NCBI GenBank assembly: GCA_025890175.1
Contig: JANPYM010000008.1
Location: forward strand, 280,925 to 344,924
Origin: Ciborinia camelliae
Lineage: Eukaryota > Ascomycota > Leotiomycetes > Helotiales > Sclerotiniaceae
Direction of reading: 5' to 3'
DNA: 64,000 bases
The position numbers and the translations under genes were made by a program. Shown here one piece after another: positions 31,140 through 53,392 of this stretch. The first letter of the stretch is position 1. Each line of letters starts with the position of its first letter. Below the pieces are notes generated by a model, which was given only the letters and a program-made list of their open reading frames with translations, searched no databases and was not told where the DNA came from.

Positions 31140-31417
31140 TTATTGAGCTGATTCATCTTCGACGGGGGCATCCAAGACGACGATGGCACCGGAATCTCGC
31201 TTTTCAATCTCATTGACGACGGGGGCATCCACGACGACGATAGCGCCAGAGTCTCGCCTTTTTTCCCCAAAGGCATCCACAATATCTCGTTTAGCTGCAG
31301 GTGGTTAGCATTTACAGTGTATCACTGCCTTGTCTGTAGGAGGTGGGTACCAGAGATAACAGGAGAGGCAAAGGTAGCAGATGCCAACAATACAACAACG
31401 GCTAATTTAGATAGCAT
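31140..31417 (-). CDS. Secreted repeat peptide precursor with Kex2 sites (candidate dikaritin/KEP-type RiPP precursor)
   Basis: Small gene, easily missed because it is spliced. Exon 1 is 31417-31351, exon 2 is 31294-31140, and the 56-bp intron 31295-31350 has a GTACCC donor and CTGCAG acceptor; the product is 73 aa. Residues 1-17 (MLSKLAVVVLLASATFA) form a good signal peptide. The rest is split by dibasic Kex2-type sites: AKR, DIVDAFGE, KRR, then DSGAIVVVDAPVVNEIE, KR, then DSGAIVVLDAPV with an acidic tail. The two DSGAIVV units are near-identical at both DNA and protein level (19-residue period). Signal peptide, KR sites and repeated core are the standard layout of ustiloxin/phomopsin-type precursors and of Kex2-processed repeat proteins in general. 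A UstYa-like gene is divergent 1.06 kb away. The core has no Tyr, Phe or Trp. The class is an inference; the peptide could also be a non-cyclised secreted peptide. Confidence 0.8.
31161..31274 (-). repeat. Two 57-bp direct repeats encoding the precursor core
   Basis: The motif gacgggggcatcca recurs at 31161 and 31218, a 57-bp period equal to 19 codons. The two copies differ at scattered, mostly silent positions over the core-coding part. Confidence 0.88.
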
Positions 31418-32480
31418 TGTTTCGAAAAAGTTGTTTTCGTCGGGCAAAAAAGGTAAGTTATCTGGTAACAAATGGTGCCTTCCAGGAAGATTGAGTAAAC
31501 GCGAAGCTTCCCTTGTGTGTGCAGAAAGAAAAGAGTGGAGTCAGATCATCTTTATGGCAAAGATACCTCATGTGGTCTGATATATCCACCACCAAGAAAA
31601 CAGCTAGACATATTGCACCACATATGTAGACTGCATTCTCCCTGTCGCTGATCTTTCACCTAAATTCTAGCCCTTCATCATGCCTAAATTTCCCCACGCC
31701 GCACAATTCAATATGTTGATCCATACACGCCATCCGAACGCTCCTGCCTGGCTGCAGACTTATCTTGGTACTTCTTTAAGTTTCCATGAAGATCAACAGA
31801 ACAAGCTGATTAGAAGGTCACAAAGGTCAATCAGGACACCCATATCTTCGGCGTCCACATCTAAGAATTCATCTTACAAAGCCATCATTACTAAGTTCGA
31901 AATAGCCAATTGCTGCCTTCGTTCTTGAATTTGCCTCCACCAAACGGTTGGCTGGCCCAACTCGGTCAAGACGGGAATTCTGTTTTGAACTCGATTTAAC
32001 TCGGTTTCACAACAGCCTGCATTATGATTAATTACCTCTTATTCCGTTTTTTTGGGAGATATCAAAAATTCGACTCGGATTGGAACTCACCGAGTCTTAG
32101 ACAGTACTGTGTCACACCCTTACTTCTATATTCAAAGTACGGTGATGTAATATATACAATTGTGATACGATGAGACTTGGGTGTAAGTGGATCGAGAAAG
32201 GCGTGTAGCGGAGGGTTTCTGGGGGAGAGACGTATGCTGAAGGGCTTTTGGGGAGATATTAGGAGTAAAAGTTGAAATTAACAGGCAATATATCACCAGA
32301 ATTATAATTTTTGGCCTGCATATTTTGTATGAGTGGGTTAGCAACAATCGTAAGAAATTTATGTCAGTAAGCCGGGTGGAAAGAATTCGCAGTTAATTAC
32401 CGATTTGTTAACATAATGAACTTTCAAATATCAGTCCCATCAAGTTTTATGATATTCTCACCAGCAAAATTTCTAAAAAC
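31418..32480. promoter_or_regulatory. Shared divergent region of the precursor and UstYa-like genes
   Basis: 1.06 kb, AT-rich. The segment 31955-32100 contains several ACTCGG/ACTCG words (31959, 31988, 31998, 32071) and a CGAGTC inverse, which might be a degraded mobile-element remnant or factor sites. An 82-codon plus-strand frame (31681-31928) has no recognisable features and is not called. Confidence 0.45.
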
Positions 32481-33435
32481 ATGGGAACCTTTTCAGAGAC
32501 TTACAAGAGACCATTGCTGGACCAGCGCAGCGAAGCCCACGATGATGGCCTCTATGAAAGCTATAAGCAATACCATCGGCGTCCCCTTTCAGAAATGGTT
32601 AAGAATGTTTTCCAGACAGTGGCATTCTTGCTGTTGCTTTACATTGCAACCCTTCTTACCGTCGATGTAGCTTCCAAGTGGACCCAGTCAGTCAACAACG
32701 AAGCAGTGAAGGAACACTTCAGTATGTCTACACCTACATCGATCAAATACTATACTTATACATTTAGCACTCCCACAGGAAGCCCTCAAGTTCGAGCAAC
32801 GACCTGAATGGCTACCGATACAGCCCCCGTGGAATCAACCACCATCCGACGAAGTGGACTCAGCATGGGATGAATTACTAGTCTGTGAGTTTATTTATCC
32901 AGAATTCTCATATCCTATCCCTAGTTACTAAGTGCCACAAGCTCTCAATATCCGAGTTACAAGCGAAGAGCTCAGTCTCCTGAGCGAGAATAAGACCAAT
33001 CTGGTCCGAGTTACTGGAGGCGATCATGGCAAGAACTATGTTGGTGTTATTGGGGTATACCACCACATCCATTGCCTCAACAACATCCGTCGACTGTTAA
33101 GTTGGGACTACTACGGGCCAAGAATTGCACATCAAAAGCATAAGGAAGGGTTTTCCAAAGAGCATGCTCGTAACGTACCCTTTATCAGAGATACGTCCAG
33201 TCCAAACTAATCGTTTCAAGATCATTGTCTCGATACAATTCGCCAGGCGCTTATGTGCCACGCCAATACTGCCTTGTATACATCGGAGTGGGATGCTAGG
33301 ACTCATATGCCCAGCAGAAACCTGAAGTCGGGAGCTGTAACGACTTGTGTACAATGGGATAGCTTGGACACATGGACGCGTCAGCGAGTACTGATACCAG
33401 GCCACTATAAGTATATAGCAAACACTGTCGAGTAA
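32481..33435 (+). CDS. UstYa-like oxidase (DUF3328 family)
   Basis: Member of the fungal UstYa/DUF3328 family. Characterised members oxidise RiPP or NRP peptides, for example the macrocyclisation of ustiloxin, phomopsin and asperipin. Four exons: 32481-32721, 32768-32884, 32933-33169 and 33221-33435 (introns 46, 48 and 51 bp), total 269 aa. A cytosolic N-terminus of about 44 residues is followed by one transmembrane helix (about 45-63, FLLLLYIATLLTVDV). The luminal domain has WLPIQPPWNQPPSDEVDSAW, LNIRVTSEEL, and both family HxxHC motifs: residues 163-167 (HHIHC) and 197-201 (HAHHC, created by the third intron join). TTCVQWDSLDTW near the C-terminus matches the usual C-W-D/N ending. One NKT glycosylation sequon is present. 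The function on the adjacent precursor is inferred from proximity. Confidence 0.88.
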
Positions 33436-34597: not shown

Positions 34598-35607
34598 ATG
34601 GCCGCGAATACAATCGCCACTGAAGGTGAGGTGGCTTTCGAGGCGCCTCAAGCTGGCAAGCCTTGTAAGACATGGTACAAAATCGTCGGCAGTCTTGAAT
34701 CCGGACCTCCCCTCGTGGCTCTCCATGGCGGTCCGGGCGCAGGTCACAACTACCTTCTCTCCCTCACAGACCTGCACGAGAAATATGGCATCCCCATCGT
34801 TTTCTACGACCAAATTGGAAGCGGACGCTCCACGCACCTCCGCGAGAAGAAGGACGACGCCACGTTCTGGACCTTCGATCTGTACATGCGGGAGCTGGAC
34901 AATCTGGTGGATCACCTCCAGCTTCGGGCGTCGGGCTTCTACCTCCTGGGTCAGAGCTGGGGTGGCATGTTCGGCTCCCAGTATGCCATTGGTCGTCCCC
35001 GGGGCTTGAAAAAATTGGTCATCTGCGGTGGCCCCGCCAGCATTCCTCTTTTGGTCAAGGGCTTCGAGATGCTGATTGCACAGTTGCCACCCGATGTTCG
35101 CGAGGCCATCGAGGACTGTAACAGACGAGGCGACTACTCGAGCCACCAGTTTGAGAAAGCCGCGGCCGTCTTCTACGCTCGTCACGTCTGTCGTCTCGAT
35201 CCGTATCCCCCGGAGGTTTCGGCCACTTTTGAGAACATGAAAGATGACCCCACGGCATATCTCACTTTGTAAGTTTTTGGAAAGATTCTGCACCTACCCA
35301 CCCAGCCTTGTTTTTTCTTCTTTTGTTTTGCGAGAGGCTAACTTGGATTCACAGGCAGGGCCCATCTGAGTTCGTGGTGGTGGGCTCTTTCAAGGATTGG
35401 GAAGGCTGGCCAGAGGGCCATAAGATCCAGGTGCCTACGCTGCTCATCAATGGCAGATATGATGAGGCCACGGATCTTTGCATGGAGCCGTGGTTTAGGA
35501 CCATTCCTAAAGTGAGATGGGTCACGCTTGAGAACTCGAGTCATATGGGTCACTGGGAGGATCGAGACCGCTTCATGGAGGTGTGCGGTGGATTTCTCTC
35601 CGAGTGA
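34598..35607 (+). CDS. Proline iminopeptidase / L-amino acid amidase (S33 alpha/beta hydrolase)
   Basis: Serine peptidase-family S33 enzyme that removes N-terminal proline, or hydrolyses amino acid amides. Two exons, 34598-35268 and 35355-35607 (86-bp intron), total 307 aa, normal for the family. Visible motifs are the oxyanion segment LVALHGGPGAGHNYL, the nucleophile elbow LLGQSWGGMFG, the acid in LLINGRYDEATD and the catalytic His in ENSSHMGHWED. The intron interrupts TAYLTLQGPSEFVVVG, where the family reads similarly. No signal peptide, so probably cytosolic. Exon 1 is clearly more GC-rich than the neighbouring accessory genes. It lies 1.2 kb downstream of the UstYa-like gene on the same strand; a role in trimming the peptide is possible but only by proximity. 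Confidence 0.9.
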
Positions 35608-49886: not shown

Positions 49887-50942
49887 ATGTCTCACGATCC
49901 CCATAACCTCTACAATTTCAAGAAACCCAAACTCCACGACTCTTCCACCCACGAACTATCCTCCTCCACCAACCTCGCATTTAGCTCCACCCTCTCATCA
50001 CTCCTCGCCTCCAACGTCCCTTCATCAAGCACCACTCGAGGACGTCCTCGCCCTTCCAAAACCAAGGAAGATATCTTCAAGACGCATAATAAAGGAGCCC
50101 AGAAGCGTGCCGCCAAAGATCTCGAAGATGATGAGAATGGATATACGCAGATCCGTCAAACCGGCGAGGCAATAGATGATCATACCCTTCACCGCAGCAA
50201 GAAGAAACTTGCCGAAAAAGCTAAAATCTATTCGCGTCTCAAGCGCGGTGAAAACGATGGACTGGAAAATGAAAATGAAGAAGAGGGACTCGTAGATTTC
50301 GATCGGAAATGGGCAGAAGAAGAAGGAGGAGGAGGAGGAGGAGAAAAAGACGAGGACGAGGATAACCACAGCGACGATTCATTCGAAGCCTCAGCCCCAG
50401 CCCCAGCCTCAGCCTCGAACCCCATCATCGAATACGAAGATGAATACGGGCGACTGATCCGGGGCACCGAACTCTCCAAACAGCGGATGCAGCGACGCCG
50501 AACGCAACGACTCCTCAACGCCTCGTCCCTCGAGCTCCTATCCGCGCGCCCCTCGATGCCCCAGCACCTCATCCACGGCGACACGATCCAAACGTCAGCC
50601 TTCACCCACGCGCTCGACGCGTCGACGGAAGAGAAGATGGCGGCGCTGGCGCGGAAGCGCGATCGCAGCCCGACGCCGCCGGAACAGCTGCATTACGAGG
50701 CGGATCGCGAGGTGCGGAGTAAGGGGCAGGGTTTCTATAGCTTCTCCAAGGATGAGCGGGTCAGGGCGGAGGAGATGGCGAGTTTGGAGCGGATGAGGGG
50801 GGAGACGGAGAGGGGGAGGGGGGACAGGGAGCGCGGGAAGGATAGGAGGAGGAGGGAGGTGGAGGAGAGGAGGAGGGTGCTTGGGGAGAAGAGGGCGAAG
50901 AGGCAGGCGGATGCTTTTTGGAGGGGTTGGACCAAGACTTGA
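49887..50942 (+). CDS. CCDC174-like protein (DUF4078), left copy with shifted C-terminus
   Basis: Nuclear protein of the CCDC174 family, linked in animals to the exon junction complex. Single exon. Characteristic blocks: PSKTKEDIFKTHNKGAQKRA, IEYEDEYGRLIRGTEL and LHYEADREVRSKGQGFYSFS, then a highly charged Arg/Glu tail. In this copy a T run at 50915-50919 has five Ts, so the frame shifts after ADAF and ends WRGWTKT (351 aa). The right-hand copy has six Ts and continues in frame. Everything from 49968 on is duplicated beyond the N gap, so this is probably one gene split by an assembly artefact. Collapsing the repeat gives 372 aa (49887-49967 plus 51685-52722). Confidence 0.88.
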   Translation: MSHDPHNLYNFKKPKLHDSSTHELSSSTNLAFSSTLSSLLASNVPSSSTTRGRPRPSKTKEDIFKTHNKGAQKRAAKDLEDDENGYTQIRQTGEAIDDHTLHRSKKKLAEKAKIYSRLKRGENDGLENENEEEGLVDFDRKWAEEEGGGGGGEKDEDEDNHSDDSFEASAPAPASASNPIIEYEDEYGRLIRGTELSKQRMQRRRTQRLLNASSLELLSARPSMPQHLIHGDTIQTSAFTHALDASTEEKMAALARKRDRSPTPPEQLHYEADREVRSKGQGFYSFSKDERVRAEEMASLERMRGETERGRGDRERGKDRRRREVEERRRVLGEKRAKRQADAFWRGWTKT

Positions 50943-51674
50943 GTTTGGACTTGGGTGGTGCGTCTGAATCGCGCGGGGGAACGGAGTCAGGAACGAAGGA
51001 ATGAATGAATGAATAAATGCCTGCCTGCCAACGAAGATCGAAGAAGCTACACGTACGCATTCTTTCTTGTATTTATACTTTACTTGATTCAGAAGATGCA
51101 GAAGAGAAGATACTTATAAAATTATAAAGTTATAAAATTATGAAGTTATGAAACTACGATACCCCCCAGATAGGATAGGATAGGATAGATAGATGGCAAT
51201 ACAATGCATCCACGCAAGGAATGAAATTCACAAGAGCCGAAGCATTCATTGCAATGCACGTAGATGTCGATCCCACATGATCCCACATGATCCTCTTCCA
51301 CTTCCTCTTCGATATAGATATAGATATAGATATAGATAGATATTGTGCACAAAAAAAGAAATCCAAGGTCAAGGTCATGGTCATGGTATACGTATCTCAA
51401 TTCATCTCATCTCAACTCAACTCATCTCATAAGCTAAAGCCCAAGTCCAAGCCCAAGCCCAAGCCCAAGCGTACATAAATATCAAGATCAAGATCAGGAT
51501 CACGCTCTCAAGATCCCATTCCGCCAGCAAAGGACATCCATCCGGCCATGCATCGATTTTCGATTCTTGTGAATCCCATCCATCCATCCGTCCATCCGTG
51601 CAACCAAAAAAAAAACCAAAAAAGGTATATGAGTACATCTACGCAGCATCCCAATCGCCGGGAACAACATGTCT
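49968..51674 (+). repeat. Left copy of a 1.7-kb duplication ending at the N gap
   Basis: 1707 bp, matching 51685-53392 except for one T. It contains most of the CCDC174-like gene and about 730 bp of 3' flank, and ends exactly at the first N. Confidence 0.95.
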
Positions 51675-51684
51675 NNNNNNNNNN
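51675..51684. other. Assembly gap (10 N)
   Basis: Ten Ns. The left sequence stops at ...acatgtct and the right one begins accaacctcgc. Both edges coincide exactly with the ends of the duplicated segment. Confidence 0.99.
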
Positions 51685-52722
51685 ACCAACCTCGCATTTA
51701 GCTCCACCCTCTCATCACTCCTCGCCTCCAACGTCCCTTCATCAAGCACCACTCGAGGACGTCCTCGCCCTTCCAAAACCAAGGAAGATATCTTCAAGAC
51801 GCATAATAAAGGAGCCCAGAAGCGTGCCGCCAAAGATCTCGAAGATGATGAGAATGGATATACGCAGATCCGTCAAACCGGCGAGGCAATAGATGATCAT
51901 ACCCTTCACCGCAGCAAGAAGAAACTTGCCGAAAAAGCTAAAATCTATTCGCGTCTCAAGCGCGGTGAAAACGATGGACTGGAAAATGAAAATGAAGAAG
52001 AGGGACTCGTAGATTTCGATCGGAAATGGGCAGAAGAAGAAGGAGGAGGAGGAGGAGGAGAAAAAGACGAGGACGAGGATAACCACAGCGACGATTCATT
52101 CGAAGCCTCAGCCCCAGCCCCAGCCTCAGCCTCGAACCCCATCATCGAATACGAAGATGAATACGGGCGACTGATCCGGGGCACCGAACTCTCCAAACAG
52201 CGGATGCAGCGACGCCGAACGCAACGACTCCTCAACGCCTCGTCCCTCGAGCTCCTATCCGCGCGCCCCTCGATGCCCCAGCACCTCATCCACGGCGACA
52301 CGATCCAAACGTCAGCCTTCACCCACGCGCTCGACGCGTCGACGGAAGAGAAGATGGCGGCGCTGGCGCGGAAGCGCGATCGCAGCCCGACGCCGCCGGA
52401 ACAGCTGCATTACGAGGCGGATCGCGAGGTGCGGAGTAAGGGGCAGGGTTTCTATAGCTTCTCCAAGGATGAGCGGGTCAGGGCGGAGGAGATGGCGAGT
52501 TTGGAGCGGATGAGGGGGGAGACGGAGAGGGGGAGGGGGGACAGGGAGCGCGGGAAGGATAGGAGGAGGAGGGAGGTGGAGGAGAGGAGGAGGGTGCTTG
52601 GGGAGAAGAGGGCGAAGAGGCAGGCGGATGCTTTTTTGGAGGGGTTGGACCAAGACTTGAGTTTGGACTTGGGTGGTGCGTCTGAATCGCGCGGGGGAAC
52701 GGAGTCAGGAACGAAGGAATGA
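51685..52722 (+). CDS. CCDC174-like protein, right copy, 5'-truncated by the gap
   Basis: Continues in the same codon phase as the left copy from TNLAFSSTLSSLLASNVPSS to the true-looking C-terminus ADAFLEGLDQDLSLDLGGAS and a TAA-type stop at 52722. Six Ts at 52632-52637 keep the frame. The N-terminal 27 codons are present only in the left copy. Best read as the 3' portion of the single gene. Confidence 0.85.
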   Translation, partial: TNLAFSSTLSSLLASNVPSSSTTRGRPRPSKTKEDIFKTHNKGAQKRAAKDLEDDENGYTQIRQTGEAIDDHTLHRSKKKLAEKAKIYSRLKRGENDGLENENEEEGLVDFDRKWAEEEGGGGGGEKDEDEDNHSDDSFEASAPAPASASNPIIEYEDEYGRLIRGTELSKQRMQRRRTQRLLNASSLELLSARPSMPQHLIHGDTIQTSAFTHALDASTEEKMAALARKRDRSPTPPEQLHYEADREVRSKGQGFYSFSKDERVRAEEMASLERMRGETERGRGDRERGKDRRRREVEERRRVLGEKRAKRQADAFLEGLDQDLSLDLGGASESRGGTESGTKE

Positions 52723-53392
52723 ATGAATGAATAAATGCCTGCCTGCCAACGAAGATCGAAGAAGCTACACGTACGCATTCTTTCTTGTATTTATACTTTA
52801 CTTGATTCAGAAGATGCAGAAGAGAAGATACTTATAAAATTATAAAGTTATAAAATTATGAAGTTATGAAACTACGATACCCCCCAGATAGGATAGGATA
52901 GGATAGATAGATGGCAATACAATGCATCCACGCAAGGAATGAAATTCACAAGAGCCGAAGCATTCATTGCAATGCACGTAGATGTCGATCCCACATGATC
53001 CCACATGATCCTCTTCCACTTCCTCTTCGATATAGATATAGATATAGATATAGATAGATATTGTGCACAAAAAAAGAAATCCAAGGTCAAGGTCATGGTC
53101 ATGGTATACGTATCTCAATTCATCTCATCTCAACTCAACTCATCTCATAAGCTAAAGCCCAAGTCCAAGCCCAAGCCCAAGCCCAAGCGTACATAAATAT
53201 CAAGATCAAGATCAGGATCACGCTCTCAAGATCCCATTCCGCCAGCAAAGGACATCCATCCGGCCATGCATCGATTTTCGATTCTTGTGAATCCCATCCA
53301 TCCATCCGTCCATCCGTGCAACCAAAAAAAAAACCAAAAAAGGTATATGAGTACATCTACGCAGCATCCCAATCGCCGGGAACAACATGTCT
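51685..53392 (+). repeat. Right copy of the 1.7-kb duplication starting at the N gap
   Basis: 1708 bp, starting at the first base after the Ns and ending at 53392. After that the sequence continues into unique DNA towards RTT107. Confidence 0.95.

Follow-up and report, generated by a model that had tools for sequence, protein, structure and literature searches.

The stretch of Ciborinia camelliae DNA considered here, which we call the window, is 64,000 nucleotides long and corresponds to C26:280925-344924 in a 46.2 Mb, 27-contig genome. It holds a small repeat-peptide gene lying divergently beside a gene for a UstYa-family (DUF3328) protein. This raises the question of whether the two form a working RiPP-type pair, and, if they do, what an oxidase of this family could do to a peptide whose repeats contain no aromatic residue. 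Overall, we find that the precursor and the UstYa protein are probably a functional RiPP-type pair. The pair is ordinary in kind and belongs to a known class, its one unusual feature being the aromatic-free repeats.

The precursor gene is encoded on the reverse strand in two exons. Exon 1 (31351..31417) starts with an ATG at 31417 and encodes a hydrophobic N-terminal segment, MLSKLAVVVLLASATFASPVIS, which resembles a signal peptide when judged by eye. It is followed by an intron of 56 bp (31295..31350; GTACCC...CAG, with a GCTAAC upstream of and near the acceptor) and by exon 2 (31140..31294, including the TAA stop). The spliced product of this gene model has 73 aa and matches the deposited C. 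camelliae protein NHQ30_006511 residue for residue from end to end, which implies that the depositors' annotation uses the same splice. After the intron, unit analysis gives the order DIVDAFGE (31263..31286, with KR before it and KRR after it), DSGAIVVVDAPVVNEIE (31197..31253 together with its KR) and DSGAIVVLDAPVEDESAQ (31143..31196, running up to the stop), all on the reverse strand, separated by KRR and KR respectively. The last two units, which were also found by our repeat detector, are near-identical repeats; there are two of these and not more, as DIVDAFGE is shorter and unlike them. In a published survey, a Kex2-processed repeat protein, or KEP, must have three or more tandem repeats, each no shorter than 8 aa, that are delimited by Kex2 sites (PMC7329392). 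With two near-identical repeats and one unlike unit, the precursor is KEP-like, but it is not a KEP under that definition.

No Pfam family matched the precursor at E 0.001, and it is therefore without a pheromone family match. The original prediction had proposed a search with the 73-aa protein as a check, and this returned the identical NHQ30_006511 as the only match at E 1 (~5.8 billion proteins, from which 32 word-sharing candidates of about 40-128 aa were scored). Scoring 76 longer candidates (about 95-301 aa) gave no homologue at E 10 either, and a search of the fungus's own genome at E 10 gave no paralogue, recovering only the two exons of the gene itself. These searches rely on shared 5-residue words and on annotated proteins, so absence is not proven by them. 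A literature search covering titles and the starts of abstracts gave nothing, among the matches listed, on the present locus or on RiPPs of C. camelliae.

The two repeats were compared with each other over 18 codons. Synonymous changes amount to 7.8 over 13.3 sites and non-synonymous changes to 8.2 over 40.7 sites, such that 59% of synonymous sites are changed versus 20% of non-synonymous sites (Fisher P 0.016); silent changes are denser per site, but about equal in number to non-silent ones. The first 12 codons, a stretch picked after its conservation had been seen, show 4 synonymous versus 1 non-synonymous change (P 0.015). This divergence, drawn from one short pair of repeats, points to selection at the protein level.

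Between the two start codons lies a divergent intergenic region of 1,063 bp (31418..32480), a candidate shared promoter. Beyond it, on the forward strand, is the UstYa/DUF3328 gene (32481..33435), with four exons encoding 266 aa and introns at 32722-32767, 32885-32941 and 33170-33220. This splice model was picked from the many that were enumerated, by splice consensus and by comparison with homologues. The encoded protein matches the profile PF11807 with E 1.5e-39 and 136.6 bits, against a curated cut-off of 25, and the chosen model carries both HxxHC motifs, HHIHC (H160xxH163C164) and HAHHC (H194xxH197C198). The deposited protein NHQ30_006512 has 208 aa and stops 44 residues past the first HxxHC; its second HxxHC is missing because intron 3 was read through. 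Splicing that intron yields KEHAHHCLDTIRQALMCHAN, which aligns with the Monilinia protein and with other homologues (28 of the 33 listed relatives given). The residues H161, H164, C165, H195, H198 and C199, in the numbering of the Monilinia vaccinii-corymbosi relative, are invariant across the 26 relatives, out of the 33 listed, that were compared. A search for a solved structure of a relative found none at E 1. When the Monilinia relative was modelled, the structure (mean pLDDT 58.7, pTM 0.38) was too poor to place the motifs, a hydrophobic helix around residues 41-60 being its sole confident stretch.

These data bear directly on the original prediction, which had described a spliced 73-aa precursor with near-identical, KR-flanked DSGAIVV units and, 1.06 kb away, a DUF3328 protein with two HxxHC motifs. 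The oxidase and its distance from the precursor are as described, and so are the splice and the near-identity of the units. The KR flanks need correction: repeat 1 has basic sites on both sides, but repeat 2 has a KR on its upstream side only.

Searching with the UstYa protein gave 33 listed relatives at E 1e-20 from 331 scored candidates, the deposited copy of the protein itself included. Among the matches listed, the best other relative comes from M. vaccinii-corymbosi (82% identity), further relatives with 39-71% identity and 57-98% query coverage come mostly from Hypoxylon, Xylaria and allies, and no protein comes from Botrytis or Sclerotinia. Blueberry, which is attacked by M. vaccinii-corymbosi, belongs to the same plant order as camellia. 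A study of Sclerotinia sclerotiorum lists four adjacent DUF3328 pairs along with a single putative RiPP cluster (PMC6941272), and the genome paper on M. vaccinii-corymbosi does not use the word RiPP in its main text (PMC8022979).

The surroundings of the pair were scanned by way of long open frames, an approach that may miss genes split into short exons. The neighbours are an amino-acid permease, a fungal-rhodopsin protein that we take to be Pth11-like, a proline-iminopeptidase-like hydrolase and a carboxylesterase, and farther out there are Gryzun, Foie-gras_1, ceramidase, TMF1, sorting nexin, homoserine dehydrogenase, BRCT and other families. The hydrolase lies just downstream of the UstYa gene (34598-35607), its first exon alone scoring 160.3 bits, below the cut-off of 167.65. 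It may trim the peptides, or may perhaps be unrelated to them. A larger cluster was considered, but no neighbour was counted in the pathway; the hydrolase was omitted for lack of evidence that it belongs there, not on evidence against it. None of the 12 tyrosinase hits falls inside the window, nor does any P450 hit among the 104 listed (first-look candidates numbered 234, of which 92 were scored). Elsewhere in the window, at 49968-52932, there is a tandem duplication of ~1.7 kb, in which the 300-nt blocks 49968/51685 and 50915/52633 are 100% identical.

Is the adjacency of the two genes likely to be a coincidence? Across the genome, 58 exon-level UstYa matches gave 34 listed stretches; 20 of these, of 9.9 kb each (198 kb), were analysed, and eight 6-kb stretches (48 kb) served as controls. 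The detector searches open frames for segments that resemble one another and are bounded by [KR]R sites. It flagged seven of the 20 UstYa stretches and none of the eight controls, which are small and would be empty anyway at the published rate. The flagged stretches are the window itself (L016), L018, L011, L012, L020, L021 and L026. We dropped the L018 flag by eye, as it is His-rich and of low complexity, and likewise three more flags elsewhere in the window, as non-secreted. This leaves, in our judgement, repeat precursors in five of the 19 other UstYa stretches, the nearest UstYa match being 1,234-2,912 bp away. At the published mean of 5.25 per ascomycete genome (PMC7329392), 0.0225 precursors would be expected in 198 kb, whereas five others are seen (Poisson P about 5e-11), with the caveat that the published rate comes from a different pipeline with a stricter criterion (at least three repeats) than ours. 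Because one and the same detector gave these five (0.02 expected) and left the controls empty, pairing by chance is unlikely. As 13 of the 20 stretches gave no precursor flag, a UstYa gene alone does not imply a nearby precursor.

The five sister precursors, all near UstYa genes, are L011 (C9:129230), L012 (C22:1814015), L020 (C9:15297), L021 (C1:3021350) and L026 (C3:1724770). L012 has only two identical copies, plus two related units. A short intron past the signal-like segment fits three of the five, namely L011, L012 (with a GC donor) and L020, several acceptors being possible, and the L026 precursor can be read without an intron. The listed repeat units of all five contain Tyr; among units outside that list, the last, truncated L020 copy and one unlike L011 unit have none. 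These five are more canonical dikaritin-type candidates than the pair in the window. We considered whether the DSGAIVV core is homologous to the L026 repeat, as an AIV stretch occurs in both, and rejected this since the alignments score no better than shuffles (P 0.44 and 0.58). The same holds for the repeats of the other four sisters (P 0.19 to 0.94).

The composition of the core is where the present pair departs from expectation. The DSGAIVVVDAPV stretch consists largely of Ile, Val, Asp, Ala and Pro, and Tyr, Phe, Trp and His are all absent from the DSGAIVV repeats. The Phe of DIVDAFGE is the only aromatic residue after the signal segment, and there is no Tyr in any unit. The described dikaritins are cross-linked via Tyr (PMC7329392, PMC9233826); links through Tyr are reported for ustiloxins, phomopsins, asperipins and epichloecyclins, and links through Phe for victorin (PMC9233826). 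Such links cannot form in the DSGAIVV units, as these have neither Tyr nor Phe. However, DUF3328 enzymes are not limited to crosslinks, since the DUF3328 protein CctR is a copper-dependent C-H hydroxylase (PMC12435403), and PhomYc, PhomYd and PhomYe have been assigned to the formation of dehydro-Ile, dehydro-Asp and dehydro-Pro in phomopsins (PMC10880069). Pairs that are free of Tyr are also common in silico: in a kingdom-wide survey 65.6% of repeats near DUF3328 genes contain Tyr (PMC7329392), so 34.4% do not (100 minus 65.6). The original prediction had read the locus as a Kex2-type repeat precursor adjoining a UstYa-family gene within a dikaritin-like pathway. The first half of this reading is well supported, with five similar pairs in the same genome, and the precursor–UstYa pair stands; the dikaritin label does not, judged by repeats that lack Tyr, Phe, Trp and His where the described dikaritins are Tyr-linked.

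We therefore favour a minimal two-gene RiPP locus, in which a Kex2-processed precursor is served by one UstYa oxidase performing aliphatic or acidic C-H oxidation, a statement that we hold, taken whole, to be slightly better than an even proposition. The 73-aa precursor would enter the secretory pathway, where, we infer, the successive action of Kex2 and Kex1 would yield DIVDAFGE together with two DSGAIVV(V/L)DAPV peptides of 17 to 18 residues. By analogy, the UstYa protein would be a membrane-anchored binuclear copper oxidase, and it would then modify the released peptides. With no aromatic side chain in the repeats, we would most expect Ile, Val, Asp or Pro to be desaturated or hydroxylated, and not a macrocycle of the Tyr type to form. 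The parts of this account differ in strength. It is quite likely that the UstYa protein of the window acts on the precursor of the window, and the aliphatic or acidic C-H chemistry, which takes the phomopsin homologues as its example, is put forward tentatively, as somewhat short of an even prospect. A more far-reaching version is rather doubtful, namely that a single UstYa copper enzyme oxidises an aromatic-free, Ile/Val/Asp/Pro-rich peptide to a dehydro- or hydroxy-amino-acid peptide with no macrocycle linked through Tyr or Phe, the precursor being one that repeat surveys of the published type would not count because of its small size.

Three other readings were weighed against this one. The absence from the DSGAIVV repeats of any residue for the described crosslinks would fit with linear peptides that are secreted unmodified, as signals or effector-like molecules, while the UstYa protein serves another substrate. 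It also accords with this that a DUF3328 gene is found within the 15 nearest genes for 22% of surveyed KEPs, leaving 78% without one (PMC7329392). We nevertheless consider it improbable in view of the divergent neighbour at 1,063 bp and the association of precursors with UstYa genes in the genome, as well as the missing pheromone family match. Less probable again is that DIVDAFGE, the sole unit with an aromatic residue and one flanked by Kex2 sites, is the real core, and that its Phe forms a crosslink broadly as in victorin, whose ring is closed between the side chain of Phe and an internal Leu (PMC9233826). The DSGAIVV units would then be spacer or by-product, yet it is they that are duplicated, with silent change denser than non-silent, whereas DIVDAFGE is present in a single copy.

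We give the same low standing to a decaying locus, in which Tyr-bearing repeats have been lost from the precursor and a remnant is left. This would suit the precursor of the window, which, in contrast to the five sisters, is Tyr-free and has just two near-identical repeats (yet L012 also has two identical copies), and for which the searches of annotated proteins gave no homologue. Its frame is nevertheless open and silent change is the denser class between its repeats, and the UstYa gene is intact, with the 82% identical relative in M. vaccinii-corymbosi.

Should the precursor and oxidase work as we propose, they would constitute a very small system, of one precursor and one oxidase, for UstYa action on Tyr-free peptides. 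The question of such peptides is posed by the survey data (PMC7329392) and is not answered by the pathways in the portion of PMC9233826 drawn on here. Two practical points follow from the locus itself: such loci can fall below a three-repeat survey threshold, and the deposited oxidase model lost one metal-binding motif through intron read-through.

Among known systems, the locus is like the asperipin-2a type, where a secreted repeat precursor with Kex2 sites lies beside a single DUF3328 gene (PMC7329392). It is unlike it in that asperipin is bicyclised via Tyr side chains (PMC9233826) and the repeats of the window have no Tyr. The likeness to phomopsin lies in the chemistry, as DUF3328 enzymes there install dehydro-Ile, dehydro-Asp and dehydro-Pro (PMC10880069). 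Phomopsin differs in requiring a tyrosinase, in its Tyr-Ile crosslink and in its DUF3328 genes, of which it has five (PMC7329392); the window shows a single DUF3328 gene beside the precursor and no tyrosinase hit, and the precursor units have no Tyr. As for the features of dikaritins in general, the core Tyr for oxidative crosslinking is absent, but a repeat precursor beside a UstYa-family gene is present, albeit with two repeats only. The sister pairs L011, L012, L020, L021 and L026 share with the window a signal-like segment, Kex2-type repeats and a UstYa match within 3 kb, and differ in the Tyr of their listed units and in having no similarity to the DSGAIVV core above shuffles. Compared with the surveyed KEP/DUF3328 pairs, the precursor is under the three-repeat threshold and has neither the Trp nor the di-His discussed there as alternatives; it shares with them the adjacent DUF3328 gene, and 34.4% of their repeats are likewise Tyr-free (PMC7329392).
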